From Leuctra nigra (taxonomy: Eukaryota > Arthropoda > Insecta > Plecoptera > Leuctridae): a stretch of 64,000 nucleotides of DNA. Each line of letters starts with the position of its first letter. The first letter of the stretch is position 1. Both the position numbers and the translations under genes were made by a program. This document shows, piece by piece, positions 5,595-39,085 of this stretch. The stretch covers positions 15,177,246 to 15,241,245 of the forward strand of contig OW203773.1 in the NCBI GenBank assembly GCA_934045905.1, in the 5' to 3' direction. The notes beneath the pieces are model-generated. The model saw only the letters and a program-made list of their open reading frames with translations. It was not told the origin of the DNA and ran no database searches.

Positions 5595-5814
5595 TCAGAG
5601 GTAACCTGCGAAATAAAAACGCGCACCCTGACTGGGAATCGAACCCAGATCCTTCGGGTTACCGGCCCTATGCTTTACCATTAAGCTATCGGGGCGCATT
5701 CTTAATCAGCAGGTTGGGTTGCCATAAAACTCTTGCGAGTCCGAGTATAGTCCGAGTATCTGACCTACTCTTTTATTCTACTGATCTACTTTTTATTTCG
5801 CAGGTAACCTCTGA
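5595..5814. mobile_element. Inverted-repeat element enclosing a tRNA-like sequence
   Basis: Perfect 25-bp inverted repeats lie at 5595-5619 (TCAGAGGTAACCTGCG then AAATAAAAA) and 5790-5814. They enclose 170 bp, most of which is a minus-strand tRNA-like sequence. No clear target-site duplication was seen just outside. A second, unrelated-looking inverted-repeat element at 46505-46914 also encloses a tRNA-like sequence with the same D-arm words. Confidence 0.75.
5625..5695 (-). tRNA. tRNA-like sequence, anticodon GGT (Thr), probably a mobile-element component
   Basis: The 71 nt fold as a cloverleaf. The acceptor is GCCCCGA with TCAGGGT (one C-A mismatch, one G-T). The D stem is GCTT/AAGC, the anticodon stem TAGGG/CCCGA has one mismatch, and the loop CCGGTAA gives anticodon GGT. 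The T arm is CTGGG-TTCGATT-CCCAG. The B box GGTTCGATTCC is perfect. Against a working tRNA gene: position 33 is C instead of the near-universal U, eukaryotes normally use AGT rather than GGT for Thr, and the copy sits inside 25-bp inverted repeats. I read it as a tRNA-like pol III module rather than a housekeeping tRNA. Confidence 0.5.
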
Positions 5815-13833: not shown

Positions 13834-13973
13834 CTATCCACGAGATCAGCCACAACATGGCGTTCGGACACAAACACCCGCTGGCCAACCGGCTGCTGGG
13901 CTTCTTCGCGAATCTCCCCATCGGCTTCCCGTTCTCCGTCAGCTTCCGCAAGTACCACCTGGAGCACCATCGG
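13834..13973 (+). CDS. DEGS1: Sphingolipid delta(4)-desaturase, exon with histidine boxes 1 and 2
   Basis: The exon encodes [18 protein letters not shown] then a stretch ending YHLEHHR. HEISH (HX3H) and HLEHH (HX2HH) are the first two iron-binding histidine boxes of membrane fatty-acid desaturases, and the flanking residues match the dihydroceramide desaturase family (animal DEGS1, fly ifc). That family inserts the 4,5-trans double bond converting dihydroceramide to ceramide in the ER membrane. The acceptor is TTGTTGCAG and the donor is CGG|GTGAGT, a strong consensus. The exon starts in phase 1 (CT completes an Ala codon) and ends in phase 0. No upstream exon is visible in 13.8 kb, so about 85-90 N-terminal residues are missing from the window; family proteins are about 320 residues. 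The next residues expected are YQGDE, supplied by the exon that has been amplified downstream. Confidence 0.95.
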
Positions 13974-14208
13974 GTGAGTAGAGGCAGGCGGCTCGTAGTG
14001 TGACTTTCATGACGAGATTCCACAGAATTATTCAGGTCTACGTCTCAGAATGAATGTAACGCAATCGAGCTCCTGATCGTTCAAATCTTCCAGTAATTTT
14101 TCAGTAACTTTGGAGGTCAAAACACTAAACAGTAAAACAATATAACTGTCTATGCTTGAAGTCTTTTCTTTCCTTGATCAAAATACCCTCAAGTACAAAT
14201 GACTATAG

Positions 14209-14571
14209 GGGCTTCGCATAAAGGACGTCACGCTTCAGGGGGGAGGGGGGGTGCACCAGGAGACACAGTGTGACAGGGGGGAGGGGGGTACTGGAGGCAG
14301 TAAGACGTCACGTTTTGATACGTATTTTCAAACATTTTAAATTTCAGTCGATATGTCGGGACCGGAAATTACGCTAAAAACGATAAGTTCTGATACATTT
14401 TACAGTAAAAAATATTCTATTTAAGGGGGGGGGGGGGGGGAGGAGAGACAGATTTGTGACGTCCTTTTAGGGGGGGGGGGGTCACGAAAAGTGTGACACA
14501 GCGTGACAGGGGGGAGGGGGGGGGGGTCAAAATATCCCATTTTTAGCGTGACTTCGTTTATGCACAGCCCC
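14209..14571. mobile_element. Intronic MITE with G-rich core
   Basis: Within the desaturase intron, GGGGCTTCGCATAAAGGACG at the left and the approximate inverse (ending TTTATGCACAGCCCC) at the right form imperfect terminal repeats flanked by ATA. The core contains several long G runs (e.g. 14425-14441, 14472-14482, 14509-14526) and repeated GTGACAGGGGGGA words. Non-coding. Confidence 0.55.
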
Positions 14572-15102
14572 ATACCTAGAAAACAGTGTCTTCTGATGAT
14601 ATTATAGCGCCTTCAAGTTAACTAGGTAATGTATTCCATTCAATTTCAAAAGATAGGATTTCAATCACTTTTGTATTGAAATCAGTTTGTTCTACTTTCT
14701 TATGAAGGTATGGAAATGGTCAAGTCAATAAACGGCTATAGGAGAGCTTATATTGCCAAGTGTAAATTAGTATAAAATTAGTGTTTGATTAAATTACTGT
14801 AGAATGCCACAAATTAAAAATGGTGTGGTCAAATGATGCACAAAGTGACATTTAAATTGGTCTGAAAGAAAAGCTCAAGAAAAAATAAGCAGTAGGTACC
14901 TATATACAAAAGAAACCAATTTTGAATTTACTGAACTAACTCTGGTACTAACTTGTCATCTATCTCTAGTAGGTAAACTCTGATTTCATTAATAATAACA
15001 ATAATTGATTGTCAAGGAACCTGACCAGCAGCCAATCTGATACTTTCGAACACCATTTTTACATTGTTGAGTGAACATTGAAGAAGCTGCTTCAATATCA
15101 AT

Positions 15103-15136
15103 TACGCTGTAGAAACATTGTCTGTTCACTCTCCAG
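15103..15136 (+). promoter_or_regulatory. Ancestral 3' splice site in front of the first exon copy
   Basis: The intron end reads TACGCTGTAGAAACATTG, then a pyrimidine-rich stretch and CTCTCCAG just before copy 1 at 15137. The last 24 bases are the same in the spacers between array copies, except that here AGAAAC stands where the copies have AGTAAC. The TACGCTG just upstream resembles the exon end TACGCGCTG and marks the probable origin of the duplication. Confidence 0.8.
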
Positions 15137-18100
15137 TACCAAGGTGACGAGAAGCTGGACACGGACATACCGACGTACCTCGAGGCCAAGCTGTTCTGCA
15201 ACACGTTCGGGAAGTTCTGCTGGGTCTGCCTCCAGCCCTTCTTCTACGCGCTGTAGTAACATTGTCTGTTCACTCTCCAGTACCAAGGTGCCGAGAAGCT
15301 GGACACGGACATACCGACGTACCTCGAGGCCAAGCTGTTCTGCAACACGTTCGGGAAGTTCTGCTGGGTCTGCCTCCAGCCCTTCTTCTACGCGCTGTAG
15401 TAACATTGTCTGTTCACTCTCCAGTACCAAGGTGACGAGAAGCTGGACACGGACATACCGACATACCTCGAGGCCAAGCTGTTCTGCAACACGTTCGGGA
15501 AGTTCTGCTGGGTCTGCCTCCAGCCCTTCTTCTACGCGCTGTAGTAACATTGTCTGTTCACTCTCCAGTACCAAGGTGACGAGAAGCTGGACACGGACAT
15601 ACCGACATACCTCGAGGCCAAGCTGTTCTGCAACACGTTCGGGAAGTTCTGCTGGGTCTGCCTCCAGCCCTTCTTCTACGCGCTGTAGTAACATTGTCTG
15701 TTCACTCTCCAGTACCAAGGTGACGAGAAGCTGGACACGGACATACCGACGTACCTCGAGGCCAAGCTGTTCTGCAACACGTTCGGGAAGTTCTGCTGGG
15801 TCTGCCTCCAGCCCTTCTTCTACGCGCTGTAGTAACATTGTCTGTTCACTCTCCAGTACCAAGGTGACGAGAAGCTGGACACTGACATACCGACATACCT
15901 CGAGGCCAAGCTGTTCTGCAACACGTTCGGGAAGTTCTGCTGGGTCTGCCTCCAGCCCTTCTTCTACGCGCTCCAGTAACATTGTCTGTTCACTCTCCAG
16001 TACCAAGGTGACGAGAAGCTGGACACTGACATACCGACATACCTCGAGGCCAAGCTGTTCTGCAACACGTTCGGGAAGTTCTGCTGGGTCTGCCTCCAGC
16101 CCTTCTTCTACGCGCTCCAGTAACATTGTCTGTTCACTCTCCAGTACCAAGGTGACGAGAAGCTGGACACTGACATACCGACATACCTCGAGGCCAAGCT
16201 GTTCTGCAACACGTTCGGGAAGTTCTGCTGGGTCTGCCTCCAGCCCTTCTTCTACGCGCTGTAGTAACATTGTCTGTTCACTCTCCAGTACCAAGGTGAC
16301 GAGAAGCTGGACACGGACATACCGACATACCTCGAGGCCAAGCTGTTCTGCAACACGTTCGGGAAGTTCTGCTGGGTCTGCCTCCAGCCCTTCTTCTACG
16401 CGCTGTAGTAACATTGTCTGTTCACTCTCCAGTACCAAGGTGACGAGAAGCTGGACACGGACATACCGACGTACCTCGAGGCCAAGCTGTTCTGCAACAC
16501 GTTCGGGAAGTTCTGCTGGGTCTGCCTCCAGCCCTTCTTCTACGCGCTCCAGTAACATTGTCTGTTCACTCTCCAGTACCAAGGTGACGAGAAGCTGGAC
16601 ACGGACATACCGACGTACCTCGAGGCCAAGCTGTTCTGCAACACGTTGGGGAAGTTCTGCTGGGTCTGCCTCCAGCCCTTCTTCTACGCGCTCCAGTAAC
16701 ATTGTCTGTTCACTCTCCAGTACCAAGGTGACGAGAAGCTGGACACTGACATACCGACATACCTCGAGGCCAAGCTGTTCTGCAACACGTTCGGGAAGTT
16801 CTGCTGGGTCTGCCTCCAGCCCTTCTTCTACGCGCTGTAGTAACATTGTCTGTTCACTCTCCAGTACCAAGGTGACGAGAAGCTGGACACGGACATACCG
16901 ACGTACCTCGAGGCCAAGCTGTTCTGCAACACGTTCGGGAAGTTCTGCTGGGTCTGCCTCCAGCCCTTCTTCTACGCGCTGTAGTAACATTGTCTGTTCA
17001 CTCTCCAGTACCAAGGTGCCGAGAAGCTGGACACGGACATACCGACATACCTCGAGGCCAAGCTGTTCTGCAACACGTTCGGGAAGTTCTGCTGGGTCTG
17101 CCTCCAGCCCTTCTTCTACGCGCTGTAGTAACATTGTCTGTTCACTCTCCAGTACCAAGGTGACGAGAAGCTGGACACGGACATACCGACGTACCTCGAG
17201 GCCAAGCTGTTCTGCAACACGTTCGGGAAGTTCTGCTGGGTCTGCCTCCAGCCCTTCTTCTACGCGCTCCAGTAACATTGTCTGTTCACTCTCCAGTACC
17301 AAGGTGACGAGAAGCTGGACACGGACATACCGACGTACCTCGAGGCCAAGCTGTTCTGCAACACGTTCGGGAAGTTCTGCTGGGTCTGCCTCCAGCCCTT
17401 CTTCTACGCGCTCCAGTAACATTGTCTGTTCACTCTCCAGTACCAAGGTGACGAGAAGCTGGACACGGACATACCGACGTACCTCGAGGCCAAGCTGTTC
17501 TGCAACACGTTCGGGAAGTTCTGCTGGGTCTGCCTCCAGCCCTTCTTTTACGCGCTGTAGTAACATTGTCTGTTCACTCTCCAGTACCAAGGTGACGAGA
17601 AGCTGGACACGGACATACCGACATACCTCGAGGCCAAGCTGTTCTGCAACACGTTCGGGAAGTTCTGCTGGGTCTGCCTCCAGCCCTTCTTCTACGCGCT
17701 GTAGTAACATTGTCTGTTCACTCTCCAGTACCAAGGTGACGAGAAGCTGGACACGGACATACCGACGTACCTCGAGGCCAAGCTGTTCTGCAACACGTTC
17801 GGGAAGTTCTGCTGGGTCTGCCTCCAGCCCTTCTTCTACGCGCTGTAGTAACATTGTCTGTTCACTCTCCAGTACCAAGGTGACGAGAAGCTGGACACGG
17901 ACATACCGACATACCTCGAGGCCAAGCTGTTCTGCAACACGTTCGGGAAGTTCTGCTGGGTCTGCCTCCAGCCCTTCTTCTACGCGCTGTAGTAACATTG
18001 TCTGTTCACTCTCCAGTACCAAGGTGACGAGAAGCTGGACACTGACATACCGACATACCTCGAGGCCAAGCTGTTCTGCAACACGTTCGGGAAGTTCTGC

Positions 18101-21100
18101 TGGGTCTGCCTCCAGCCCTTCTTCTACGCGCTGTAGTAACATTGTCTGTTCACTCTCCAGTACCAAGGTGACGAGAAGCTGGACACTGACATACCGACAT
18201 ACCTCGAGGCCAAGCTGTTCTGCAACACGTTCGGGAAGTTCTGCTGGGTCTGCCTCCAGCCCTTCTTCTACGCGCTGTAGTAACATTGTCTGTTCACTCT
18301 CCAGTACCAAGGTGACGAGAAGCTGGACACGGACATACCGACATACCTCGAGGCCAAGCTGTTCTGCAACACGTTCGGGAAGTTCTGCTGGGTCTGCCTC
18401 CAGCCCTTCTTCTACGCGCTGTAGTAACATTGTCTGTTCACTCTCCAGTACCAAGGTGACGAGAAGCTGGACACGGACATACCGACGTACCTCGAGGCCA
18501 AGCTGTTCTGCAACACGTTCGGGAAGTTCTGCTGGGTCTGCCTCCAGCCCTTCTTCTACGCGCTGTAGTAACATTGTCTGTTCACTCTCCAGTACCAAGG
18601 TGACGAGAAGCTGGACACGGACATACCGACATACCTCGAGGCCAAGCTGTTCTGCAACACGTTCGGGAAGTTCTGCTGGGTCTGCCTCCAGCCCTTCTTC
18701 TACGCGCTGTAGTAACATTGTCTGTTCACTCTCCAGTACCAAGGTGACGAGAAGCTGGACACGGACATACCGACATACCTCGAGGCCAAGCTGTTCTGCA
18801 ACACGTTCGGGAAGTTCTGCTGGGTCTGCCTCCAGCCCTTCTTCTACGCGCTGTAGTAACATTGTCTGTTCACTCTCCAGTACCAAGGTGACGAGAAGCT
18901 GGACACGGACATACCAACATACCTCGAGGCCAAGCTGTTCTGCAACACGTTCGGGAAGTTCTGCTGGGTCTGCCTCCAGCCCTTCTTCTACGCGCTGTAG
19001 TAACATTGTCTGTTCACTCTCCAGTACCAAGGTGACGAGAAGCTGGACACGGACATACCGACGTACCTCGAGGCCAAGCTGTTCTGCAACACGTTCGGGA
19101 AGTTCTGCTGGGTCTGCCTCCAGCCCTTCTTCTACGCGCTCCAGTAACATTGTCTGTTCACTCTCCAGTACCAAGGTGACGAGAAGCTGGACACGGACAT
19201 ACCGACATACCTCGAGGCCAAGCTGTTCTGCAACACGTTCGGGAAGTTCTGCTGGGTCTGCCTCCAGCCCTTCTTCTACGCGCTCCAGTAACATTGTCTG
19301 TTCACTCTCCAGTACCAAGGTGACGAGAAGCTGGACACGGACATACCGACGTACCTCGAGGCCAAGCTGTTCTGCAACACGTTCGGGAAGTTCTGCTGGG
19401 TCTGCCTCCAGCCCTTCTTCTACGCGCTGTAGTAACATTGTCTGTTCACTCTCCAGTACCAAGGTGACGAGATGCTGGACACGGACATACCGACATACCT
19501 CGAGGCCAAGCTGTTCTGCAACACGTTCGGGAAGTTCTGCTGGGTCTGCCTCCAGCCCTTCTTCTACGCGCTCCAGTAACATTGTCTGTTCACTCTCCAG
19601 TACCAAGGTGACGAGAAGCTGGACACGGACATACCGACGTACCTCGAGGCCAAGCTGTTCTGCAACACGTTCGGGAAGTTCTGCTGGGTCTGCCTCCAGC
19701 CCTTCTTCTACGCGCTGTAGTAACATTGTCTGTTCACTCTCCAGTACCAAGGTGACGAGATGCTGGACACGGACATACCGACATACCTCGAGGCCAAGCT
19801 GTTCTGCAACACGTTCGGGAAGTTCTGCTGGGTCTGCCTCCAGCCCTTCTTCTACGCGCTCCAGTAACATTGTCTGTTCACTCTCCAGTACCAAGGTGAC
19901 GAGAAGCTGGACACTGACATACCGACGTACCTCGAGGCCAAGCTGTTCTGCAACACGTTCGGGAAGTTCTGCTGGGTCTGCCTCCAGCCCTTCTTCTACG
20001 CGCTCCAGTAACATTGTCTGTTCACTCTCCAGTACCAAGATGACGAGAAGCTGGACACTGACATACCGACGTACCTCGAGGCCAAGCTGTTCTGCAACAC
20101 GTTCGGGAAGTTCTGCTGGGTCTGCCTCCAGCCCTTCTTCTACGCGCTGTAGTAACATTGTCTGTTCACTCTCCAGTACCAAGGTGACGAGAAGCTGGAC
20201 ACTGACATACCGACGTACCTCGAGGCCAAGCTGTTCTGCAACACGTTCGGGAAGTTCTGCTGGGTCTGCCTCCAGCCCTTCTTCTACGCGCTCCAGTAAC
20301 ATTGTCTGTTCACTCTCCAGTACCAAGGTGATGAGAAGCTGGACACGGACATACCGACATACCTCGAGGCCAAGCTGTTCTGCAACACGTTCGGGAAGTT
20401 CTGCTGGGTCTGCCTCCAGCCCTTCTTCTACGCGCTGTAGTAACATTGTCTGTTCACTCTCCAGTACCAAGGTGACGAGAAGCTGGACACGGACATACCG
20501 ACGTACCTCGAGGCCAAGCTGTTCTGCAACACGTTCGGGAAGTTCTGCTGGGTCTGCCTCCAGCCCTTCTTCTACGCGCTGTAGTAACATTGTCTGTTCA
20601 CTCTCCAGTACCAAGGTGACGAGAAGCTGGACACGGACATACCGACCTACCTCGAGGCCAAGCTGTTCTGCAACACGTTCGGGAAGTTCTGCTGGGTCTG
20701 CCTCCAGCCCTTCTTCTACGCGCTGTAGTAACATTGTCTGTTCACTCTCCAGTACCAAGGTGACGAGAAGCTGGACACGGACATACCGACATACCTCGAG
20801 GCCAAGCTGTTCTGCAACACGTTCGGGAAGTTCTGCTGGGTCTGCCTCCAGCCCTTCTTCTACGCGCTCCAGTAACATTGTCTGTTCACTCTCCAGTACC
20901 AAGGTGACGAGAAGCTGGACACGGACATACCGACGTACCTCGAGGCCAAGCTGTTCTGCAACACGTTCGGGAAGTTCTGCTGGGTCTGCCTCCAGTCCTT
21001 CTTCTACGCGCTGTAGTAACATTGTCTGTTCACTCTCCAGTACCAAGGTGACGAGAAGCTGGACACTGACATACCGACATACCTCGAGGCCAAGCTGTTC

Positions 21101-22480
21101 TGCAACACGTTCGGGAAGTTCTGCTGGGTCTGCCTCCAGCCCTTCTTCTACGCGCTGTAGTAACATTGTCTGTTCACTCTCCAGTACCAAGGTGACGAGA
21201 AGCTGGACACGGACATACCGACGTACCTCGAGGCCAAGCTGTTCTGCAACACGTTCGGGAAGTTCTGCTGGGTCTGCCTCCAGCCCTTCTTCTACGCGCT
21301 GTAGTAACATTGTCTGTTCACTCTCCAGTACCAAGGTGACGAGAAGCTGGACACGGACATACCGACGTACCTCGAGGCCAAGCTGTTCTGCAACACGTTC
21401 GGGAAGTTCTGCTGGGTCTGCCTCCAGCCCTTCTTCTACGCGCTGTAGTAACATTGTCTGTTCACTCTCCAGTACCAAGGTGACGAGAAGCTGGACACGG
21501 ACATACCGACATACCTCGAGGCCAAGCTGTTCTGCAACACGTTCGGGAAGTTCTGCTGGGTCTGCCTCCAGCCCTTCTTCTACGCGCTGTAGTAACATTG
21601 TCTGTTCACTCTCCAGTACCAAGGTGACGAGAAGCTGGACACTGACATACCGACATACCTCGAGGCCAAGCTGTTCTGCAACACGTTCGGGAAGTTCTGC
21701 TGGGTCTGCCTCCAGCCCTTCTTCTACGCGCTCCAGTAACATTGTCTGTTCACTCTCCAGTACCAAGGTGACGAGAAGCTGGACACTGACATACCGACAT
21801 ACCTCGAGGCCAAGCTGTTCTGCAACACGTTCGGGAAGTTCTGCTGGGTCTGCCTCCAGCCCTTCTTCTACGCGCTCCAGTAACATTGTCTGTTCACTCT
21901 CCAGTACCAAGGTGCCGAGAAGCTGGACACTGACATACCGACATACCTCGAGGCCAAGCTGTTCTGCAACACGTTCGGGAAGTTCTGCTGGGTCTGCCTC
22001 CAGCCCTTCTTCTACGCGCTGTAGTAACATTGTCTGTTCACTCTCCAGTACCAAGGTGACGAGAAGCTGGACACTGACATACCGACATACCTCGAGGCCA
22101 AGCTGTTCTGCAACACGTTCGGGAAGTTCTGCTGGGTCTGCCTCCAGCCCTTCTTCTACGCGCTCCAGTAACATTGTCTGTTCACTCTCCAGTACCAAGG
22201 TGACGAGAAGCTGGACACGGACATACCGACATACCTCGAGGCCAAGCTGTTCTGCAACACGTTCGGGAAGTTCTGCTGGGTCTGCCTCCAGCCCTTCTTC
22301 TACGCGCTGTAGTAACATTGTCTGTTCACTCTCCAGTACCAAGGTGACGAGAAGCTGGACACGGACATACCGACATACCTCGAGGCCAAGCTGTTCTGCA
22401 ACACGTTCGGGAAGTTCTGCTGGGTCTGCCTCCAGCCCTTCTTCTACGCGCTGTAGTAACATTGTCTGTTCACTCTCCAG

Positions 22481-22597
22481 TACCAAGGTGACGAGAAGCT
22501 GGACACGGACATACCGACATAGTTCGAGGCCAAGCTGTTCTGCAACACGTTCGGGAAGTTCTGCTGGGTCTGCCTCCAGCCCTTCTTCTACGCGCTG
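22481..22597 (+). pseudogene. Exon copy 52 with in-frame TAG
   Basis: TAC CTC is changed to TAG TTC at 22520-22525, two adjacent substitutions giving a stop at codon 14 of the 39-codon unit. It is one of two array copies with a premature stop inside the exon frame. Confidence 0.9.
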
Positions 22598-25500
22598 TAG
22601 TAACATTGTCTGTTCACTCTCCAGTACCAAGGTGACGAGAAGCTGGACACGGACATACCGACATACCTCGAGGCCAAGCTGTTCTGCAACACGTTCGGGA
22701 AGTTCTGCTGGGTCTGCCTCCAGCCCTTCTTCTACGCGCTGTAGTAACATTGTCTGTACACTCTCCAGTACCAAGGTGATGAGAAGCTGGACACGGACAT
22801 ACCGACGTACCTCGAGGCCAAGCTGTTCTGCAACACGTTCGGGAAGTTCTGCTGGGTCTGCCTCCAGCCCTTCTTCTACGCGCTGTAGTAACATTGTCTG
22901 TTCACTCTCCAGTACCAAGGTGACGAGAAGCTGGACACGGACATACCGACATACCTCGAGGCCAAGCTGTTCTGCAACACGTTCGGGAAGTTCTGCTGGG
23001 TCTGCCTCCAGCCCTTCTTCTACGCGCTGTAGTAACATTGTCTGTTCACTCTCCAGTACCAAGGTGACGAGAAGCTGGACACGGACATACCGACGTACCT
23101 CGAGGCCAAGCTGTTCTGCAACACGTTCGGGAAGTTCTGCTGGGTCTGCCTCCAGCCCTTCTTCTACGCGCTGTAGTAACATTGTCTGTTCACTCTGCAG
23201 TACCAAGGTGACGAGAAGCTGGACACGGACATACCGACATACCTCGAGGCCAAGCTGTTCTGCAACACGATCGGGAAGTTCTGCTGGGTCTGCCTCCAGC
23301 CCTTCTTCTACGCGCTGTAGTAACATTGTCTGTTCACTCTCCAGTACCAAGGTGACGAGAAGCTGGACACGGACATACCGACGTACCTCGAGGCCAAGCT
23401 GTTCTGCAACACGTTCGGGAAGTTCTGCTGGGTCTGCCTCCAGCCCTTCTTCTACGCGCTGTAGTAACATTGTCTGTTCACTCTCCAGTACCAAGGTGAC
23501 GAGAAGCTGGACACGGACATACCGACGTACCTCGAGGCCAAGCTGTTCTGCAACACGTTCGGGAAGTTCTGCTGGGTCTGCCTCCAGCCCTTCTTCTACG
23601 CGCTGTAGTAACATTGTCTGTTCACTCTCCAGTACCAAGGTGATGAGAAGCTGGACACGGACATACCGACATACCTCGAGGCCAAGCTGTTCTGCAACAC
23701 GTTCGGGAAGTTCTGCTGGGTCTGCCTCCAGCCCTTCTTCTACGCGCTGTAGTAACATTGTCTGTTCACTCTCCAGTACCAAGGTGACGAGAAGCTGGAC
23801 ACGGACATACCGACGTACCTCGAGGCCAAGCTGTTCTGCAACACGTTCGGGAAGTTCTGCTGGGTCTGCCTCCAGCCCTTCTTCTACGCGCTGTAGTAAC
23901 ATTGTCTGTTCACTCTCCAGTACCAAGGTGACGAGAAGCTGGACACTGACATACCGACATACCTCGAGGCCAAGCTGTTCTGCAACACGTTCGGGAAGTT
24001 CTGCTGGGTCTGCCTCCAGCCCTTCTTCTACGCGCTGTAGTAACATTGTCTGTTCACTCTCCAGTACCAAGGTGACGAGAAGCTGGACACGGACATACCG
24101 ACATACCTCGAGGCCAAGCTGTTCTGCAACACGTTCGGGAAGTTCTGCTGGGTCTGCCTCCAGCCCTTCTTCTACGCGCTGTAGTAACATTGTCTGTTCA
24201 CTCTCCAGTACCAAGGTGACGAGAAGCTGGACACGGACATACCGACATACCTCGAGGCCAAGCTGTTCTGCAACACGTTCGGGAAGTTCTGCTGGGTCTG
24301 CCTCCAGCCCTTCTTCTACGCGCTCCAGTAACATTGTCTGTTCACTCTCCAGTACCAAGGTGATGAGAAGCTGGACACTGACATACCGACATACCTCGAG
24401 GCCAAGCTGTTCTGCAACACGTTCGGGAAGTTCTGCTGGGTCTGCCTCCAGCCCTTCTTCTACGCGCTCCAGTAACATTGTCTGTTCACTCTCCAGTACC
24501 AAGGTGACGAGAAGCTGGACACGGACATACCGACATACCTCGAGGCCAAGCTGTTCTGCAACACGTTCGGGAAGTTCTGCTGGGTCTGCCTCCAGCCCTT
24601 CTTCTACGCGCTGTAGTAACATTGTCTGTTCACTCTCCAGTACCAAGGTGACGAGAAGCTGGACACTGACATACCGACATACCTCGAGGCCAAGCTGTTC
24701 TGCAACACGTTCGGGAAGTTCTGCTGGGTCTGCCTCCACCCCTTCTTCTACGCGCTGTAGTAACATTGTCTGTTCACTCTCCAGTACCAAGGTGACGAGA
24801 AGCTGGACACTGACATACCGACATACCTCGAGGCCAAGCTGTTCTGCAACACGTTCGGGAAGTTCTGCTGGGTCTGCCTCCAGCCCTTCTTCTACGCGCT
24901 GTAGTAACATTGTCTGTTCACTCTCCAGTACCAAGGTGACGAGAAGCTGGACACGGACATACCGACATACCTCGAGGCCAAGCTGTTCTGCAACACGTTC
25001 GGGAAGTTCTGCTGGGTCTGCCTCCAGCCCTTCTTCTACGCGCTGTAGTAACATTGTCTGTTCACTCTCCAGTACCAAGGTGACGAGAAGCTGGACACGG
25101 ACATACCGACATACCTCGAGGCCAAGCTGTTCTGCAACACGTTCGGGAAGTTCTGCTGGGTCTGCCTCCAGCCCTTCTTCTACGCGCTGTAGTAACATTG
25201 TCTGTTCACTCTCCAGTACCAAGGTGACGAGAAGCTGGACACGGACATACCGACGTACCTCGAGGCCAAGCTGTTCTGCAACACGTTCGGGAAGTTCTGC
25301 TGGGTCTGCCTCCAGCCCTTCTTCTACGCGCTGTAGTAACATTGTCTGTTCACTCTCCAGTACCAAGGTGACGAGAAGCTGGACACGGACATACCGACAT
25401 ACCTCGAGGCCAAGCTGTTCTGCAACACGTTCGGGAAGTTCTGCTGGGTGTGCCTCCAGCCCTTCTTCTACGCGCTGTAGTAACATTGTCTGTTCACTCT

Positions 25501-28500
25501 CCAGTACCAAGGTGACGAGAAGCTGGACACGGACATACCGACATACCTCGAGGCCAAGCTGTTCTGCAACACGTTCGGGAAGTTCTGCTGGGTCTGCCTC
25601 CAGCCCTTCTTCTACGCGCTGTAGTAACATTGTCTGTTCACTCTCCAGTACCAAGGTGACGAGAAGCTGGACACGGACATACCGACATACCTCGAGGCCA
25701 AGCTGTTCTGCAACACGTTCGGGAAGTTCTGCTGGGTCTGCCTCCAGCCCTTCTTCTACGCGCTCCAGTAACATTGTCTGTTCACTCTCCAGTACCAAGG
25801 TGACGAGAAGCTGGACACGGACATACCGACATACCTCGAGGCCAAGCTGTTCTGCAACACGTTCGGGAAGTTCTGCTGGGTCTGCCTCCAGCCCTTCTTC
25901 TACGCGCTGTAGTAACATTGTCTGTTCACTCTCCAGTACCAAGGTGACGAGAAGCTGGACACGGACATACCGACATACCTCGAGGCCAAGCTGTTCTGCA
26001 ACACGTTCGGGAAGTTCTGCTGGGTCTGCCTCCAGCCCTTCTTCTACGCGCTGTAGTAACATTGTCTGTTCACTCTCCAGTACCAAGGTGACGAGAAGCT
26101 GGACACGGACATACCGACATACCTCGAGGCCAAGCTGTTCTGCAACACGTTCGGGAAGTTCTGCTGGGTCTGCCTCCAGCCCTTCTTCTACGCGCTGTAG
26201 TAACATTGTCTGTTCACTCTCCAGTACCAAGGTGACGAGAAGCTGGACACGGACATACCGACATTCCTCGAGGCCAAGCTGTTCTGCAACACGTTCGGGA
26301 AGTTCTGCTGGGTCTGCCTCCAGCCCTTCTTCTACGCGCTGTAGTAACATTGTCTGTTCACTCTCCAGTACCAAGGTGACGAGAAGCTGGACACGGACAT
26401 ACCGACATACCTCGAGGCCAAGCTGTTCTGCAACACGTTCGGGAAGTTCTGCTGGGTCTGCCTCCAGCCCTTCTTCTACGCGCTGTAGTAACATTGTCTG
26501 TTCACTCTCCAGTACCAAGGTGATGAGAAGCTGGACACGGACATACCGACGTACCTCGAGGCCAAGCTGTTCTGCAACACGTTCGGGAAGTTCTGCTGGG
26601 TCTGCCTCCAGCCCTTCTTCTACGCGCTGTAGTAACATTGTCTGTTCACTCTCCAGTACCAAGGTGACGAGAAGCTGGACACGGACATACCGACGTACCT
26701 CGAGGCCAAGCTGTTCTGCAACACGTTCGGGAAGTTCTGCTGGGTGTGCCTCCAGCCCTTCTTCTACGCGCTGTAGTAACATTGTCTGTTCACTCTCCAG
26801 TACCAAGGTGACGAGAAGCTGGACACGGACATACCGACGTACCTCGAGGCCAAGCTGTTCTGCAACACGTTCGGGAAGTTCTGCTGGGTCTGCCTCCAGC
26901 CCTTCTTCTACGCACTCCAGTAACATTGTCTGTTCACTCTCCAGTACCAAGGTGACGAGAAGCTGGACACGGACATACCGACGTACCTCGAGGCCAAGCT
27001 GTTCTGCAACACGTTCGGGAAGTTCTGCTGGGTCTGCCTCCAGCCCTTCTTCTACGCGCTGTAGTAACATTGTCTGTTCACTCTCCAGTACCAAGGTGAC
27101 GAGAAGCTGGACACGGACATACCGACGTACCTCGAGGCCAAGCTGTTCTGCAACACGTTCGGGAAGTTCTGCTGGGTCTGCCTCCAGCCCTTCTTCTACG
27201 CGCTCCAGTAACATTGTCTGTTCACTCTCCAGTACCAAGGTGACGAGAAGCTGGACATGGACATACCGACATACCTCGAGGCCAAGCTGTTCTGCAACAC
27301 GTTCGGGAAGTTCTGCTGGGTCTGCCTCCAGCCCTTCTTCTACGCGCTGTAGTAACATTGTCTGTTCACTCTCCAGTACCAAGGTGACGAGAAGCTGGAC
27401 ACGGACATACCGACGTACCTCGAGGCCAAGCTGTTCTGCAACACGTTCGGGAAGTTCTGCTGGGTGTGCCTCCAGCCCTTCTTCTACGCACTCCAGTAAC
27501 ATTGTCTGTTCACTCTCCAGTACCAAGGTGACGAGAAGCTGGACACTGACATACCGACGTACCTCGAGGCCAAGCTGTTCTGCAACACGTTCGGGAAGTT
27601 CTGCTGGGTCTGCCTCCAGCCCTTCTTCTACGCGCTGTAGTAACATTGTCTGTTCACTCTCCAGTACCAAGGTGACGAGAAGCTGGACACTGACATACCG
27701 ACATACCTCGAGGCCAAGCTGTTCTGCAACACGTTCGGGAAGTTCTGCTGGGTCTGCCTCCAGCCCTTCTTCTACGCGCTGTAGTAACATTGTCTGTTCA
27801 CTCTCCAGTACCAAGGTGACGAGAAGCTGGACACTGACATACCGACGTACCTCGAGGCCAAGCTGTTCTGCAACACGTTCGGGAAGTTCTGCTGGGTCTG
27901 CCTCCAGCCCTTCTTCTACGCGCTCCAGTAACATTGTCTGTTCACTCTCCAGTACCAAGGTGACGAGAAGCTGGACACGGACATACCGACATACCTCGAG
28001 GCCAAGCTGTTCTGCAACACGTTCGGGAAGTTCTGCTGGGTCTGCCTCCAGCCCTTCTTCTACGCGCTGTAGTAACATTGTCTGTTCACTCTCCAGTACC
28101 AAGGTGACGAGAAGCTGGACACTGACATACCGACGTACCTCGAGGCCAAGCTGTTCTGCAACACGTTCGGGAAGTTCTGCTGGGTCTGCCTCCAGCCCTT
28201 CTTCTACGCGCTGTAGTAACATTGTCTGTTCACTCTCCAGTACCAAGGTGACGAGAAGCTGGACACGGACATACCGACATACCTCGAGGCCAAGCTGTTC
28301 TGCAACACGTTCGGGAAGTTCTGCTGGGTCTGCCTCCAGCCCTTCTTCTACGCGCTGTAGTAACATTGTCTGTTCACTCTCCAGTACCAAGGTGACGAGA
28401 AGCTGGACACGGACATACCGACGTACCTCGAGGCCAAGCTGTTCTGCAACACGTTCGGGAAGTTCTGCTGGGTCTGCCTCCAGCCCTTCTTCTACGCGCT

Positions 28501-29392
28501 GTAGTAACATTGTCTGTTCACTCTCCAGTACCAAGGTGACGAGAAGCTGGACACGGACATACCGACGTACCTCGAGGCCAAGCTGTTCTGCAACACGTTC
28601 GGGAAGTTCTGCTGGGTCTGCCTCCAGCCCTTCTTCTACGCGCTGTAGTAACATTGTCTGTTCACTCTCCAGTACCAAGGTGACGAGAAGCTGGACACGG
28701 ACATACCGACGTACCTCGAGGCCAAGCTGTTCTGCAACACGTTCGGGAAGTTCTGCTGGGTCTGCCTCCAGCCCTTCTTCTACGCGCTGTAGTAACATTG
28801 TCTGTTCACTCTCCAGTACCAAGGTGACGAGAAGCTGGACACGGACATACCGACGTACCTCGAGGCCAAGCTGTTCTGCAACACGTTCGGGAAGTTCTGC
28901 TGGGTCTGCCTCCAGCCCTTCTTCTACGCGCTGTAGTAACATTGTCTGTTCACTCTCCAGTACCAAGGTGACGAGAAGCTGGACACGGACATACCGACAT
29001 ACCTCGAGGCCAAGCTGTTCTGCAACACGTTCGGGAAGTTCTGCTGGGTCTGCCTCCAGCCCTTCTTCTACGCGCTCCAGTAACATTGTCTGTTCACTCT
29101 CCAGTACCAAGGTGACGAGAAGCTGGACACGGACATACCGACATACCTCGAGGCCAAGCTGTTCTGCAACACGTTCGGGAAGTTCTGCTGGGTCTGCCTC
29201 CAGCCCTTCTTCTACGCGCTGTAGTAACATTGTCTGTTCACTCTCCAGTACCAAGGTGACGAGAAGCTGGACACTGACATACCGACATACCTCGAGGCCA
29301 AGCTGTCCTGCAACACGTTCGGGAAGTTCTGCTGGGTCTGCCTCCAGCCCTTCTTCTACGCGCTGTAGTAACATTGTCTGTTCACTCTCCAG

Positions 29393-29535
29393 TACTAAGG
29401 TGACGAGAAGCTGGACACGGACATACCGACATACCTCGAGGCCAAGCTGTTCTGCAACACGTTCGGGAAGTTCTGCTGGGTCTGCCTCCAGCCCTTCTTC
29501 TACGCGCTCAGTAACATTGTCTGTTCACTCTCCAG
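29393..29535 (+). pseudogene. Exon copy 100: TAA stop and the only indel of the array
   Basis: CAA is changed to TAA at 29396-29398, stopping the exon frame at codon 2. The spacer after this copy reads GCTCAGTAAC instead of GCTCCAGTAAC, a 1-bp loss that makes the unit 143 bp. This removes the spacer stop in the exon frame, but the copy is already dead. Confidence 0.9.
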
Positions 29536-32500
29536 TACCAAGGTGACGAGAAGCTGGACACGGACATACCGACGTACCTCGAGGCCAAGCTGTTCTGCAA
29601 CACGTTCGGGAAGTTCTGCTGGGTCTGCCTCCAGCCCTTCTTCTACGCGCTGTAGTAACATTGTCTGTTCACTCTCCAGTACAAAGGTGACGAGAAGCTG
29701 GACACGGACATACCGACGTACCTCGAGGCCAAGCTGTTCTGCAACACGTTCGGGAAGTTCTGCTGGGTCTGCCTCCAGCCCTTCTTCTACGCGCTGTAGT
29801 AACATTGTCTGTTCACTCTCCAGTACCAAGGTGACGAGAAGCTGGACACGGACATACCGACATACCTCGAGGCCAAGCTGTTCTGCAACACGTTCGGGAA
29901 GTTCTGCTGGGTCTGCCTCCAGCCCTTCTTCTACGCGCTGTAGTAACATTGTCTGTTCACGCTCCAGTACCAAGGTGATGAGAAGCTGGACACGGACATA
30001 CCGACATACCTCGAGGCCAAGCTGTTCTGCAACACGTTCGGGAAGTTCTGCTGGGTCTGCCTCCAGCCCTTCTTCTACGCGCTGTAGTAACATTGTCTGT
30101 TCACTCTCCAGTACCAAGGTGACGAGAAGCTGGACACGGACATACCGACATACCTCGAGGCCAAGCTGTTCTGCAACACGTTCGGGAAGTTCTGCTGGGT
30201 CTGCCTCCAGCCCTTCTTCTACGCGCTGTAGTAACATTGTCTGTTCACTCTCCAGTACCAAGGTGACGAGAAGCTGGACACGGACATACCGACGTACCTC
30301 GAGGCCAAGCTGTTCTGCAACACGTTCGGGAAGTTCTGCTGGGTCTGCCTCCAGCCCTTCTTCTACGCGCTGTAGTAACATTGTCTGTTCACTCTCCAGT
30401 ACCAAGGTGACGAGAAGCTGGACACGGACATACCGACGTACCTCGAGGCCAGGCTGTTCTGCAACACGTTCGGGAAGTTCTGCTGGGTCTGCCTCCAGCC
30501 CTTCTTCTACGCGCTGTAGTAACATTGTCTGTTCACTCTCCAGTACCAAGGTGACGAGAAGCTGGACACGGACATACCGACGTACCTCGAGGCCAAGCTG
30601 TTCTGCAACACGTTCGGGAAGTTCTGCTGGGTCTGCCTCCAGCCCTTCTTCTACGCGCTGTAGTAACATTGTCTGTTCACTCTCCAGTACCAAGGTGACG
30701 AGAAGCTGGACACTGACATACCGACGTACCTCGAGGCCAAGCTGTTCTGCAACACGTTCGGGAAGTTCTGCTGGGTCTGCCTCCAGCCCTTCTTCTACGC
30801 GCTCCAGTAACATTGTCTGTTCACTCTCCAGTACCAAGGTGACGAGAAGCTGGACACGGACATACCGACGTACCTCGAGGCCAAGCTGTTCTGCAACACG
30901 TTCGGGAAGTTCTGCTGGGTCTGCCTCCAGCCCTTCTTCTACGCGCTGTAGTAACATTGTCTGTTCACTCTCCAGTACCAAGGTGACGAGAAGCTGGACA
31001 CGGACATACCGACGTACCTCGAGGCCAAGCTGTTCTGCAACACGTTCGGGAAGTTCTGCTGGGTGTGCCTCCAGCCCTTCTTCTACGCGCTGTAGTAACA
31101 TTGTCTGTTCACTCTCCAGTACCAAGGTGATGAGAAGCTGGACACGGACATACCGACGTACCTCGAGGCCAAGCTGTTCTGCAACACGTTCGGGAAGTTC
31201 TGCTGGGTGTGCCTCCAGCCCTTCTTCTACGCGCTCCAGTAACATTGTCTGTTCACTCTCCAGTACCAAGGTGACGAGAAGCTGGACACGGACATACCGA
31301 CATACCTCGAGGCCAAGCTGTTCTGCAACACGTTCGGGAAGTTCTGCTGGGTGTGCCTCCAGCCCTTCTTCTACGCGCTGTAGTAACATTGTCTGTTCAC
31401 TCTCCAGTACCAAGGTGATGAGAAGCTGGACACGGACATACCGACATACCTCGAGGCCAAGCTGTTCTGCAACACGTTCGGGAAGTTCTGCTGGGTCTGC
31501 CTCCAGCCCTTCTTCTACGCGCTGTAGAAACATTGTCTGTTCACTCTCCAGTACCAAGGTGACGAGAAGCTGGACACGGACATACCGACATACCTCGAGG
31601 CCAAGCTGTTCTGCAACACGTTCGGGAAGTTCTGCTGGGTCTGCCTCCAGCCCTTCTTCTACGCGCTGTAGTAACATTGTCTGTTCACTCTCCAGTACCA
31701 AGGTGACGAGAAGCTGGACACGGACATACCGACATACCTCGAGGCCAAGCTGTTCTGCAACACGTTCGGGAAGTTCTGCTGGGTCTGCCTCCAGCCCTTC
31801 TTCTACGCGCTGTAGTAACATTGTCTGTTCACTTTCCAGTACCAAGGTGACGAGAAGCTGGACACGGACATACCGACGTACCTCGAGGCCAAGCTGTTCT
31901 GCAACACGTTCGGGAAGTTCTGCTGGGTCTGCCTCCAGCCCTTCTTCTACGCGCTCCAGTAACATTGTCTGTTCACTCTCCAGTACCAAGGTGACGAGAA
32001 GCTGGACACGGACATACCGACATACCTCGAGGCCAAGCTGTTCTGCAACACGTTCGGGAAGTTCTGCTGGGTCTGCCTCCAGCCCTTCTTCTACGCGCTG
32101 TAGTAACATTGTCTGTTCACTCTCCAGTACCAAGGTGACGAGAAGCTGGACACGGACATACCGACATACCTCGAGGCCAAGCTGTTCTGCAACACGTTCG
32201 GGAAGTTCTGCTGGGTCTGCCTCCAGCCCTTCTTCTACGCGCTCCAGTAACATTGTCTGTTCACTCTCCAGTACCAAGGTGATGAGAAGCTGGACACGGA
32301 CATACCGACATACCTCGAGGCCAAGCTGTTCTGCAACACGTTCGGGAAGTTCTGCTGGGTCTGCCTCCAGCCCTTCTTCTACGCGCTGTAGTAACATTGT
32401 CTGTTCACTCTCCAGTACCAAGGTGACGAGAAGCTGGACACGGACATACCGACATACCTCGAGGCCAAGCTGTTCTGCAACACGTTCGGGAAGTTCTGCT

Positions 32501-35500
32501 GGGTCTGCCTCCAGCCCTTCTTCTACGCGCTGTAGTAACATTGTCTGTTCACTCTCCAGTACCAAGGTGACGAGAAGCTGGACACGGACATACCGACATA
32601 CCTCGAGGCCAAGCTGTTCTGCAACACGTTCGGGAAGTTCTGCTGGGTCTGCCTCCAGCCCTTCTTCTACGCGCTGTAGTAACATTGTCTGTTCACTCTC
32701 CAGTACCAAGGTGACGAGAAGCTGGACACGGACATACCGACGTACCTCGAGGCCAAGCTGTTCTGCAACACGTTCGGGAAGTTCTGCTGGGTCTGCCTCC
32801 AGCCCTTCTTCTACGCGCTGTAGTAACATTGTCTGTTCACTCTCCAGTACCAAGGTGACGAGAAGCTGGACACGGACATACCGACATACCTCGAGGCCAA
32901 GCTGTTCTGCAACACGTTCGGGAAGTTCTGCTGGGTCTGCCTCCAGCCCTTCTTCTACGCGCTCCAGTAACATTGTCTGTTCACTCTCCAGTACCAAGGT
33001 GATGAGAAGCTGGACACGGACATACCGACGTACCTCGAGGCCAAGCTGTTCTGCAACACGTTCGGGAAGTTCTGCTGGGTCTGCCTCCAGCCCTTCTTCT
33101 ACGCGCTGTAGTAACATTGTCTGTTCACTCTCCAGTACCAAGGTGACGAGAAGCTGGACACGGACATACCGACGTACCTCGAGGCCAAGCTGTTCTGCAA
33201 CACGTTCGGGAAGTTCTGCTGGGTCTGCCTCCAGCCCTTCTTCTACGCGCTGTAGTAACATTGTCTGTTCACTCTCCAGTACCAAGGTGACGAGAAGCTG
33301 GACACGGACATACCGACGTACCTAGAGGCCAAGCTGTTCTGCAACACGTTCGGGAAGTTCTGCTGGGTCTGCCTCCAGCCCTTCTTCTACGCGCTGTAGT
33401 AACATTGTCTGTTCACTCTCCAGTACCAAGGTGATGAGAAGCTGGACACGGACATACCGACATACCTCGAGGCCAAGCTGTTCTGCAACACGTTCGGGAA
33501 GTTCTGCTGGGTCTGCCTCCAGCCCTTCTTCTACGCGCTGTAGTAACATTGTCTGTTCACTCTCCAGTACCAAGGTGACGAGAAGCTGGACACGGACATA
33601 CCGACATACCTCGAGGCCAAGCTGTTCTGCAACACGTTCGGGAAGTTCTGCTGGGTCTGCCTCCAGCCCTTCTTCTACGCGCTGTAGTAACATTGTCTGT
33701 TCACTCTCCAGTACCAAGGTGACGAGAAGCTGGACACGGACATACCGACATACCTCGAGGCCAAGCTGTTCTGCAACACGTTCGGGAAGTTCTGCTGGGT
33801 CTGCCTCCAGCCCTTCTTCTACGCGCTCCAGTAACATTGTCTGTTCACTCTCCAGTACCAAGGTGACGAGAAGCTGGACACGGACATACCGACATACCTC
33901 GAGGCCAAGCTGTTCTGCAACACGTTCGGGAAGTTCTGCTGGGTCTGCCTCCAGCCCTTCTTCTACCCGCTGTAGTAACATTGTCTGTTCACTCTCCAGT
34001 ACCAAGGTGACGAGAAGCTGGACACGGACATACCGACATACCTCGAGGCCAAGCTGTTCTGCAACACGTTCGGGAAGTTCTGCTGGGTCTGCCTCCAGCC
34101 TTTCTTCTACGCGCTGTAGTAACATTGTCTGTTCACTCTCCAGTACCAAGGTGACGAGAAGCTGGACACGGACATACCGACATACCTCGAGGCCAAGCTG
34201 TTCTGCAACACGTTCGGGAAGTTCTGCTGGGTCTGCCTCCAGCCCTTCTTCTACGCGCTCCAGTAACATTGTCTGTTCACTCTCCAGTACCAAGGTGACG
34301 AGAAGCTGGACACGGACATACCGACATACCTCGAGGCCAAGCTGTTCTGCAACACGTTCGGGAAGTTCTGCTGGGTCTGCCTCCAGCCCTTCTTCTACGC
34401 GCTGTAGTAACATTGTCTGTTCACTCTCCAGTACCAAGGTGATGAGAAGCTGGACACGGACATACCGACATACCTCGAGGCCAAGCTGTTCTGCAACACG
34501 TTCGGGAAGTTCTGCTGGGTCTGCCTCCAGCCCTTCTTCTACGCGCTGTAGTAACATTGTCTGTTCACTCTCCAGTACCAAGGTGACGAGAAGCTGGACA
34601 CTGACATACCGACATACCTCGAGGCCAAGCTGTTCTGCAACACGTTCGGGAAGTTCTGCTGGGTCTGCCTCCAGCCCTTCTTCTACGCGCTCCAGTAACA
34701 TTGTCTGTTCACTCTCCAGTACCAAGGTGACGAGAAGCTGGACACGGACATACCGACGTACCTCGAGGCCAAGCTGTTCTGCAACACGTTCGGGAAGTTC
34801 TGCTGGGTCTGCCTCCAGCCCTTCTTCTACGCGCTGTAGTAACATTGTCTGTTCACTCTCCAGTACCAAGGTGACGAGAAGCTGGACACGGACATACCGA
34901 CATACCTCGAGGCCAAGCTGTTCTGCAACACGTTCGGGAAGTTCTGCTGGGTCTGCCTCCAGCCCTTCTTCTACGCGCTGTAGTAACATTGTCTGTTCAC
35001 TCTCCAGTACCAAGGTGACGAGAAGCTGGACACGGACATACCGACGTACCTCGAGGCCAAGCTGTTCTGCAACACGTTCGGGAAGTTCTGCTGGGTCTGC
35101 CTCCAGCCCTTCTTCTACGCGCTGTAGTAACATTGTCTGTTCACTCTCCAGTACCAAGGTGACGAGAAGCTGGACACGGACATACCGACGTACCTCGAGG
35201 CCAAGCTGTTCTGCAACACGTTCGGGAAGTTCTGCTGGGTCTGCCTCCAGCCCTTCTTCTACGCGCTGTAGTAACATTGTCTGTTCACTCTCCAGTACCA
35301 AGGTGACGAGAAGCTGGACACGGACATACCGACATACCTCGAGGCCAAGTTGTTCTGCAACACGTTCGGGAAGTTCTGCTGGGTCTGCCTCCAGCCCTTC
35401 TTCTACGCGCTGTAGTAACATTGTCTGTATACTCTCCAGTACCAAGGTGACGAGAAGCTGGACACGGACATACCGACATACCTCGAGGCCAAGCTGTTCT

Positions 35501-36303
35501 GCAACACGTTCGGGAAGTTCTGCTGGGTCTGCCTCCAGCCCTTCTTCTACGCGCTGTAGTAACATTGTCTGTTCAATCTCCAGTACCAAGGTGACGAGAA
35601 GCTGGACACGGACATACCGACGTACCTCGAGGCCAAGCTGTTCTGCAACACGTTCGGGAAGTTCTGCTGGGTCTGCCTCCAGCCCTTCTTCTACGCGCTG
35701 TAGTAACATTGTCTGTTCACTCTCCAGTACCAAGGTGACGAGAAGCTGGACACGGACATACCGACATACCTCGAGGCCAAGCTGTTCTGCAACACGTTCG
35801 GGAAGTTCTGCTGGGTCTGCCTCCAGCCCTTCTTCTACGCGCTGTAGTAACATTGTCTGTTCACTCTCCAGTACCAAGGTGACGAGAAGCTGGACACGGA
35901 CATACCGACGTACCTCGAGGCCAAGCTGTTCTGCAACACGTTCGGGAAGTTCTGCTGGGTCTGCCTCCAGCCCTTCTTCTACGCGCTGTAGTAACATTGT
36001 CTGTTCACTCTCCAGTACCAAGGTGACGAGAAGCTGGACACGGACATACCGACATACCTCGAGGCCAAGCTGTTCTGCAACACGTTCGGGAAGTTCTGCT
36101 GGGTCTGCCTCCAGCCCTTCTTCTACGCGCTGTAGTAACATTGTCTGTTCACTCTCCAGTACCAAGGTGACGAGAAGCTGGACACGGACATACCGACATA
36201 CCTCGAGGCCAAGCTGTTCTGCAACACGTTCGGGAAGTTCTGCTGGGTCTGCCTCCAGCCCTGCTTCTACGCGCTGTAGTAACATTGTCTGTTCACTCTC
36301 CAG

Positions 36304-36517
36304 TACCAAGGTGACGAGAAGCTGGACACGGACATACCGACATACCTCGAGGCCAAGCTGTTCTGCAACACGTTCGGGAAGTTCTGCTGGGTCTGCCTCC
36401 AGCCCTTCTTCTACGCGCTGAGGCCGCTCATCGTCTACCCCAAGCCGCCAGAGCGACTGGAGCTGATCAACGCGGTCATTCAGATCTCCTTCGACGTCTT
36501 CGTCTACAAGTACTTCG
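36304..36517 (+). CDS. DEGS1: Sphingolipid delta(4)-desaturase, terminal (productive) exon copy
   Basis: Copy 148 of the array is the only one continued by normal coding sequence: after FFYAL it reads RPLIVYPKPPERLELINAVI and on to VYKYF, matching the family between histidine boxes 2 and 3 (a membrane-associated segment). The acceptor is CTCTCCAG at 36296-36303 and the donor is TTCG|GTTAGT at 36518, giving 214 nt, phase 0 in and phase 1 out. Its sequence equals the array consensus, with no private change. A full-length mRNA requires splicing from 13973 to this acceptor, past 147 equivalents. Use of an earlier acceptor would give a protein ending after FFYAL and lacking the third histidine box. 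Confidence 0.95.
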
Positions 36518-37232: not shown

Positions 37233-37444
37233 GCGGCCACATGCTGGTCTACATGATCGTGGGCGCCCTGCTGGCCATGGGGATGCACCCCGTGGCCGGC
37301 CACTTCATCTCCGAGCACTACATGTTCCGCAAGGGCTACGAGACGTACAGTTACTACGGCTGTCTCAACTTCATCACCTTCAACGTCGGATACCACAACG
37401 AGCATCACGACTTCCCATTCGTCCCGGGCTCCAGGCTGCCGGAG
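37233..37444 (+). CDS. DEGS1: Sphingolipid delta(4)-desaturase, exon with histidine box 3
   Basis: The exon encodes [20 protein letters not shown] then [35 protein letters not shown] and PGSRLPE. HNEHH is the third histidine box (HX2HH), and the first part is a hydrophobic membrane segment. The acceptor is CACATTCCAG; GC completes the Gly codon split with the previous exon. The donor is GAG|GTCGGT, weak after +2 but GT-containing and in phase 0. Nothing is broken. Confidence 0.95.
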
Positions 37445-37731: not shown

Positions 37732-38105
37732 CTCAACGGAGCCGAGGCTCCACTAGTGAGAATGTAATAGAGAAGGGAGGAGAGGAAACCCGGTACCGGC
37801 ATGTAGCCTACTCCTGACGAAAGATACCAAGGGGACCAACGGCTTAACGTCCCTTCCGAAGGACGGTGTGACATTCACAGCACGGGCCTCCACAACCCGC
37901 GCCGTCGAGAGACTGATAACAGGTGGAGGGAGGTCGTCACACTAACCCCCAAACACCCCAGTCTCTCTGGCCCAACGGCAGCAACCTGGCAAGGCAGAGT
38001 TGAATGGTCACCCATCCAATCGCTGACCGCGCTCAATGTTGCTTAACCTCGGTGATCTAACGAGAACCGAGGTATCCAACACACCAGCCGTTGGGTTCAC
38101 ATAGG
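37732..38105 (-). repeat. 5S-rRNA-derived SINE (SINE3 type)
   Basis: On the minus strand, the 5' part (about 38100-38000) reads TTAGATCACCGAGGTTAAGC then GGTCAGCGATTGGATGGGTG, matching the 5S rRNA A box/IE region and C box (TTGGATGGGTGACC at 38006-38019). 5S-derived internal promoters define SINE3 elements. The 3' part carries a LINE-like tail (GACGTTAAGCCGTTGGTCCC) shared with the 11.9-12.2 kb fragment. The far end (37732-37772) is also found, inverted, at 13748-13792. Confidence 0.65.
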
Positions 38106-38944: not shown

Positions 38945-39085
38945 GTAAAGCGGATAGCGGCCGAGTACTACGACAACCTGCCGCACCACAACTCCTGGTC
39001 CGCCGTGCTGTGGGACTTCATCATGGACCCCGAGATCGGACCGTACGCCCGCATCAAGCGCAAGCACCGCGGGCTCAAGACCTGA
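38945..39085 (+). CDS. DEGS1: Sphingolipid delta(4)-desaturase, last coding exon
   Basis: The exon encodes VKRIAAEYYDNLPHHNSWSA, then DFIMDPEIGPYARIKRKHRG and LKT, ending at TGA 39083-39085. RLPEVKRIAAE-type sequence across the junction and the DPxIGPYxRxKR tail are family hallmarks. The acceptor is GTGTTTCAG, phase 0. The four visible exons total 707 nt, giving 234 residues plus one split codon. No AATAAA lies in the first ~1.2 kb after the stop; the first one I noticed is at 40378-40383, so the 3' end is uncertain. Confidence 0.95.
   Translation, partial: VKRIAAEYYDNLPHHNSWSAVLWDFIMDPEIGPYARIKRKHRGLKT

Follow-up and report, generated by a model that had tools for sequence, protein, structure and literature searches.

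How can a gene that appears to work carry 148 near-identical copies of the front of one of its own coding exons, and how might they have arisen? The question is raised by a DES1 gene of the insect Leuctra nigra, in a window of 64 000 nucleotides (the whole stretch of DNA analysed, C12:15177246-15241245) on a 26.8-Mb contig, C12, of an assembly comprising 536 Mb in 144 contigs. A preliminary description, made from the letters of the window, had placed a 148-copy exon satellite inside its own DES1 gene at 15137-36420. On this point Tandem Repeats Finder (TRF), an independent segmentation and the joined 321-aa coding sequence agree.

The array and its host gene

TRF found one dominant array, which spans 15105-36420 and has a period of 144, with 148.0 copies and 98% matches (score 41197). 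The independent segmentation recovered 148 exon copies with starts running from 15137 to 36304, spaced by 144 bp in 146 cases and by 143 bp in one (unit 100). It also bore out the composition of the unit given in the preliminary description, namely the last 27 bp of intron 3 (TAGTAACATTGTCTGTTCACTCTCCAG) followed by the first 117 bp of coding exon 4 (YQGDEKLDTDIPTYLEAKLFCNTFGKFCWVCLQPFFYAL). The features of the gene and the array are as follows; positions are those of the window unless prefixed by C12.

C12:15170976-15171057 (upstream of the window), plus strand: DES1 exon 1 (joined coding sequence)
C12:15171701-15171877 (upstream of the window), plus strand: DES1 exon 2 (joined coding sequence)
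13834..13973, plus strand: DES1 exon 3 (AIHEISHN...LEHHR), donor GTGAGT (tblastn; exon boundaries, joined coding sequence)
13974..15109, plus strand: unique part of DES1 intron 3 ahead of the array (breakpoints, exon borders)
15105..15109, plus strand: microhomology CGCTG on the left side of the junction at which the array was born (5 bp common to the right breakpoint)
15110..36420, plus strand: DES1 array of 148 tandem units, each with 27 bp of intron end and 117 bp of exon 4 start (TRF, segmentation, breakpoints)
29393..29535, plus strand: copy 100 (143 bp), whose second codon in the DES1 frame is a stop (segmentation, frame reading)
36304..36517, plus strand: functional DES1 exon 4, consisting of copy 148 (36304-36420) and the unrepeated remainder, donor GTTAGT (segmentation, joined coding sequence)
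36416..36420, plus strand: right microhomology CGCTG, end of the repeated part of exon 4 (breakpoint comparison)
37233..37444, plus strand: DES1 exon 5, containing NEHHDFP (tblastn, joined coding sequence)
38945..39085, plus strand: DES1 exon 6 and stop codon (tblastn, joined coding sequence)

The 27-bp intron end carries a branch-like TAGTAAC (judged by eye), a pyrimidine-rich tract and CAG, and the acceptor AG is intact in 146 of 146 scored units. Copy 1 is preceded by unique intron with the tail TAGAAAC rather than TAGTAAC. Copy 148 shows no departure from the consensus, and no other copy continues into AGGCCGCTC and the remaining exon 4, as had been described. Copies differ from one another by 1.5% on average, with 46 distinct units among 147, and the GC content of the array is 54%, compared with 27-49% per kb in the window flanks. 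In its length of 21.3 kb and its near-identical monomers arranged head to tail, the array resembles satellite DNA. Tandem duplicated alternative exons have their own acceptor and donor in each copy; the DES1 units carry an acceptor and no strong donor motif. The earlier statement that the copies are without donor sites holds for strong donors, as a motif scan of the unit found none, but not for weak donor-like strings, which can be picked out by eye (AAG/GTGACG, and CT/GTAGTA at most junctions). Higher-order repeat structure was considered and rejected, since over lags 1-59 units differ on average at between 1.99 and 2.39 sites, almost regardless of how far apart they are.

The host gene is complete: six exons encode an unbroken 321 aa, 80.7% identical to DES1 of the termite Cryptotermes over 321 aa. 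A 188-aa part gave 2186 protein matches at E ≤ 0.001, the best being a Schistocerca DES1 isoform (84%), with Cryptotermes at 80%. The NEHHDFP motif in exon 5 is presumably the third histidine box. Exon borders are ordinary apart from a weak exon 5 donor, GTCGGT. The array expands intron 3 from approximately 1.2 kb to 22.3 kb. Were the copies spliced in and read through, 145 of the 148 would stop after 39-40 codons, copy 52 after 13 and copy 100 after 1; the early stops predicted from copies 1-147 all precede the histidine box in exon 5. The array also contains open frames of 4823 and 4808 codons, on both strands, which exist because the 144-bp unit has no stops in those frames. As neither is in the DES1 frame, a protein-coding meaning for the array was rejected, and annotators should be warned that it yields chance open frames of more than 4800 codons on both strands.

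A DES1 search of the same genome gave at least 156 matches (124 of 172 candidates scored); among the matches listed, the array copies all fall within this DES1 gene. At least three diverged DES1 paralogs lie on the same contig, at 6.32, 14.65 and 14.67 Mb, with identities of 51-66% for the paralog exons. In the 3.2-kb stretches examined at these paralogs the homologous exon is present once, with no tandem array; judging from these sequences, exon 4 was very likely single to begin with.

Other features of the window include a tRNA-Thr (GGT) gene at 5623-5695 on the minus strand and, at 53970-55628, an open frame of 552 aa in which MULE transposase and SWIM zinc-finger domains are recognised. 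A stretch at 37990-38090 on the minus strand resembles by eye the 3' part of 5S rRNA, with no Rfam match at gathering score; we take it to be perhaps a 5S-derived SINE. At 60653-61879 a 91-bp repeat occurs in four copies, immediately followed by nine copies of what is, by consensus units, apparently the same 91-bp unit inverted.

Exon-edge arrays elsewhere on the contig

The preliminary description spoke of a single amplified exon. In a wider scan the event proved not to be unique: four further arrays built from an exon edge and its splice site were found on C12. TRF was run over 304 kb (the window and 240 kb of flank), keeping arrays with a period of 35 or more and at least 1.8 copies (n = 34). 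The three longest of these 34, the DES1 array and those labelled B and C below, all repeat an exon edge with a splice site; among the other arrays in the 304 kb, some look coding (units of 93, 219 and 57 bp) and others look unrelated. Arrays D and E came from a CD36 family search of the same genome, which gave 113 matches on contigs C6, C7, C12 and C13 (92 of 227 candidates scored).

C12:15303178-15311142: array B, trypsin-like exon end SDSSPLVYGGVVTSLEHIPWHAGIWKPNGPRYEHLCGGTLIARDLVVTG and GTGAGTAA with donor, 71 copies of 107-113 bp (TRF, unit scoring)
C12:15326560-15328405, minus strand: array C, CD36-family exon end of 41 bp and 30 bp of intron with GTAAGT, 26 copies of approximately 71 bp (TRF, Pfam)
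C12:15863124-15864298, minus strand: array D, CD36, 16 bp of intron end TCATGATGTGTTACAG and 131 bp of exon start, 8 copies of 147 bp (CD36 family search)
C12:5760735-5762413, minus strand: array E, CD36, 40 bp of intron end and 95 bp of exon start, approximately 12 copies of 135 bp (CD36 family search)
C12:15134980-15135068, minus strand: candidate F, two identical 44-bp copies ending in GTAAGTAATTCCCT, with GTAAGT (TRF flank scan)

Arrays B and C both lie within 152 kb of the window start. In array B the first copy is joined to the exon start, and 17 of 71 units depart in length from 113 bp. Its functional copy departs from the consensus at four positions, a point against the reading favoured below. 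Of 70 scored units, 68 retain the donor GT and two have it changed. The exon gave a Pfam Trypsin match at E 0.0036, below the Pfam cut-off, and PDB matches to 26 distinct sequences at E 0.002-0.01, of which 25 are urokinase and one elastase. Array C matches Pfam CD36 (E 9e-9, above the cut-off), with GTAAGT in 25 of 25 scored units; a search of the PDB with the CD36 exon piece found no chain.

Array D has the same plan as the DES1 array, its last copy continuing into the full exon and donor. In array E the remaining exon does not follow, and the next CD36 match among those listed (92 of 227 candidates scored) is approximately 105 kb away. The gene of this array seems to have been lost while the array persisted, unless exons close by lie outside the scored candidates. 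Candidate F, which has no Pfam family above the cut-off, may be a newborn exon-edge duplication in putative coding sequence. Together the DES1 array and arrays B to E represent several independent cases, with 8 to 148 copies, on one insect contig. All arrays seen lie on C12, which also makes up most of the sequence examined. A search of the genome for myosin heads gave 93 matches on C1-C5, C7 and C13 (65 of 157 candidates scored), none of them in an exon-edge array; a cluster at C1:19366964-19370357 resembles the usual alternative-exon cassettes of muscle myosin.

Variation, origin and splicing

In the DES1 array, the exon variants present in six or more copies are all synonymous (5 of 5), whereas the singletons, with 6 synonymous and 14 nonsynonymous changes, are close to the synonymous share of 21-27% expected at random. 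Array B leans the same way (6 synonymous to 4 not among frequent variants, 3:11 among singletons), but alone is not significant (p 0.067), and in the eight copies of array D the three variants shared by two or more copies are all synonymous. Pooling frequent variants (six or more copies in the DES1 array and B, two or more in D) gave 14:4 synonymous to not (14/18), against 9:25 (9/34) for singletons from the DES1 array and B (Fisher p 0.0005), or against 18:42 for all rarer variants of these two arrays (p 0.0004). These thresholds were picked after inspecting the data. The first of them (10 or more copies, DES1 array only) gave 4:0 versus 8:16 (p 0.024), while all variants of the DES1 array and B in two or more copies gave 20:21 versus 9:25 (p 0.04). 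DES1 unit 100 (143 bp) and arrays C, E and F were left out of the test. The predominance of synonymous changes among frequent variants suggests that the arrays exchange sequence with the working exons, where selection would remove harmful changes. Singletons in the DES1 array have similar densities in the exon part (0.17 per bp) and the intron part (0.22), which, along with their random-looking synonymous share, indicates no visible protection of the acceptor context apart from the AG.

The pattern of variation also bears on whether the array is real. The preliminary description had named an assembly expansion as the alternative. On that reading the true locus would have a single copy or a handful, the remainder being a product of assembly or polishing. 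Four frequent variant sites in the DES1 units are almost unlinked (six pairs, |r| 0.04-0.24), and the similarity of adjacent units exceeds that of shuffled ones by very little (p 0.03). Near-zero linkage within units fits conversion, but base-by-base polishing of a noisy assembly could mimic it. Blocks duplicated by an assembler would, however, be long and exact, whereas the longest exact repeat in unit register within the 21.3 kb is 640 bp, which argues against a misassembled expansion; with repeats of this size and 46 distinct units, long reads of ordinary length would overlap uniquely. Other genes carry comparable arrays at both donor and acceptor edges. The worry thus finds no support in the letters themselves, and we regard an artefact of assembly as very unlikely.

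If the array is real, it could be useful, with the copies serving as decoy acceptors whose unproductive splicing reduces DES1 expression or sets its timing. The retention of the acceptor AG in every scored copy, with early stops from 147 of the 148 if they were used and read through, means that copy number could tune DES1 output. Yet the AG is all that is visibly protected, with singletons about as dense in the intron part as in the exon part and their synonymous share looking random, and the presence of arrays in unrelated genes, some with donors, suggests a mutational process. We consider a regulatory role improbable and think that the array is tolerated rather than useful. Conversely, it might have disabled this DES1, with paralogs taking over, and the paralogs on the same contig would be available for this. 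The gene nevertheless has six open exons with nearly all borders ordinary, its product is nearer to termite DES1 (81%, full length) than the paralog exons are (51-66%), and its functional copy is identical to the consensus, all of which make loss of function unlikely.

We favour instead a reading of the DES1 array as a real, young expansion of the front edge of exon 4 with its 3' splice site, probably one case of exon stuttering that recurs on this chromosome. Its edges (left intron ...AATTACGCTG/TAGAAAC, right exon ...TACGCGCTG/AGGCC) have CGCTG (5 bp) in common, so a join between short homologies on either side of the intron/exon border readily accounts for the first duplication. In this first step, the one visible in outline, a duplication over the intron 3/exon 4 border would have joined the exon CGCTG to the intron CGCTG, giving a 144-bp unit with an acceptor and no good donor. 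A point against this reading is that microhomology, of 5 bp at DES1 and 6 bp (CTTTCA) at array C, amounts to 0-1 bp at the junctions of B, D and F. Secondary structure was rejected as a general driver, as single-stranded DNA folds of the DES1 117-bp exon piece and the protease unit are weaker than those of shuffles (z +1.1 to +2.0); the array D unit, with 8 copies, is alone in having a stronger fold than shuffles (z -2.1, -2.4). The later rise to 148 copies may be due to unequal exchange, conversion or replication slippage, which would also keep the copies and the functional exon similar.

For splicing, no strong donor lies nearby except the one that closes exon 4; exon definition would match it to the nearest acceptor, which belongs to copy 148, and the other 147 copies would leave as part of the 22.3-kb intron. 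DES1 would still work, since the copy chosen in exon definition would be the one that has the opposite splice site as its partner. Where flanking introns are large, the splice sites closest across the exon are reported to be preferred (PMC9225289). Such a rule predicts that the last copy is used in acceptor arrays and the first in donor arrays. All four gene-attached arrays fit: the copy joined to the remaining exon is the last in the DES1 array and D (acceptor) and the first in B and C (donor). We infer that splicing here follows the closest-across-exon rule.

More tentatively, the chromosome may have an ongoing amplification, biased to splice edges, that reaches satellite size, with arrays continually exchanging sequence with the working exon and some outliving or leaving their gene. 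If so, exons would evolve in concert with dozens of untranslated copies, selection filtering them via one copy, and the orphan CD36 array would mark a path that leads straight from a coding exon to satellite DNA. Three questions become testable at this locus: what gives rise to a satellite within a gene, why 147 near-identical acceptors are passed over by the spliceosome, and whether untranslated copies and a working exon can evolve in concert.

Comparison with known systems

Repetition of a coding exon within one gene is shared with Dscam-type alternative exons and myosin-like cassettes. In those genes each repeated exon is complete, has an acceptor and a donor, and is separated from the next by an intron, whereas the DES1 array repeats part of an exon with a single splice site, one unit directly after another. 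In the gigantic introns of Drosophila Y genes, too, a functioning gene carries intronic tandem DNA on the scale of a satellite. That DNA is not known to derive from a coding exon edge of its host gene, as the DES1 satellite does.

A closer parallel is the exon or sequence stuttering reported mostly from chicken dot chromosomes (Genome Biol Evol 2026, PMC12954441), an event of the same type; the preliminary description knew of no such satellites having been described. In chicken, 115 genes have exon copies in 236 introns, 190 of these on GC-rich dot chromosomes (an association, not the authors' criterion). Copies number 1-44 (median 4), with exon parts of 20-187 bp and spans of 112-23 555 bp; the copied sequence usually touches an exon border, intron length varies strongly among individuals, and gerbil genes are given as an exception outside birds. 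Our literature search, with most subscription journals outside it, found the same anatomy only in this paper, and no insect case; a passage of PMC7757076 proved unrelated.

The likeness lies in the plan, an exon edge with the adjacent donor or acceptor tandemly repeated through the neighbouring intron while the functional exon stays intact, and in size (117 bp of exon and a span of 21.3 kb for DES1, against up to 23.6 kb in chicken). The copied part spans an exon border with its splice site in the DES1 array, B and C; the source exon is intact, with copy 148 matching the consensus within an open 321-aa coding sequence; and three further genes and one orphan array share the chromosomal environment on C12. 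As read from the assembly, the anatomy of the DES1 array accords with the criterion stated in PMC12954441. The chicken clusters are, by contrast, imperfect and of few copies, whereas DES1 has 148 regular 144-bp units with 1.5% divergence, approximately three times the top chicken copy number of 44, and lies on an insect contig rather than a GC-rich dot microchromosome. The anatomy of exon stuttering thus extends beyond GC-rich bird microchromosomes, and what is new relative to that study is the insect host, the copy number, the regularity and the lower-GC surroundings.
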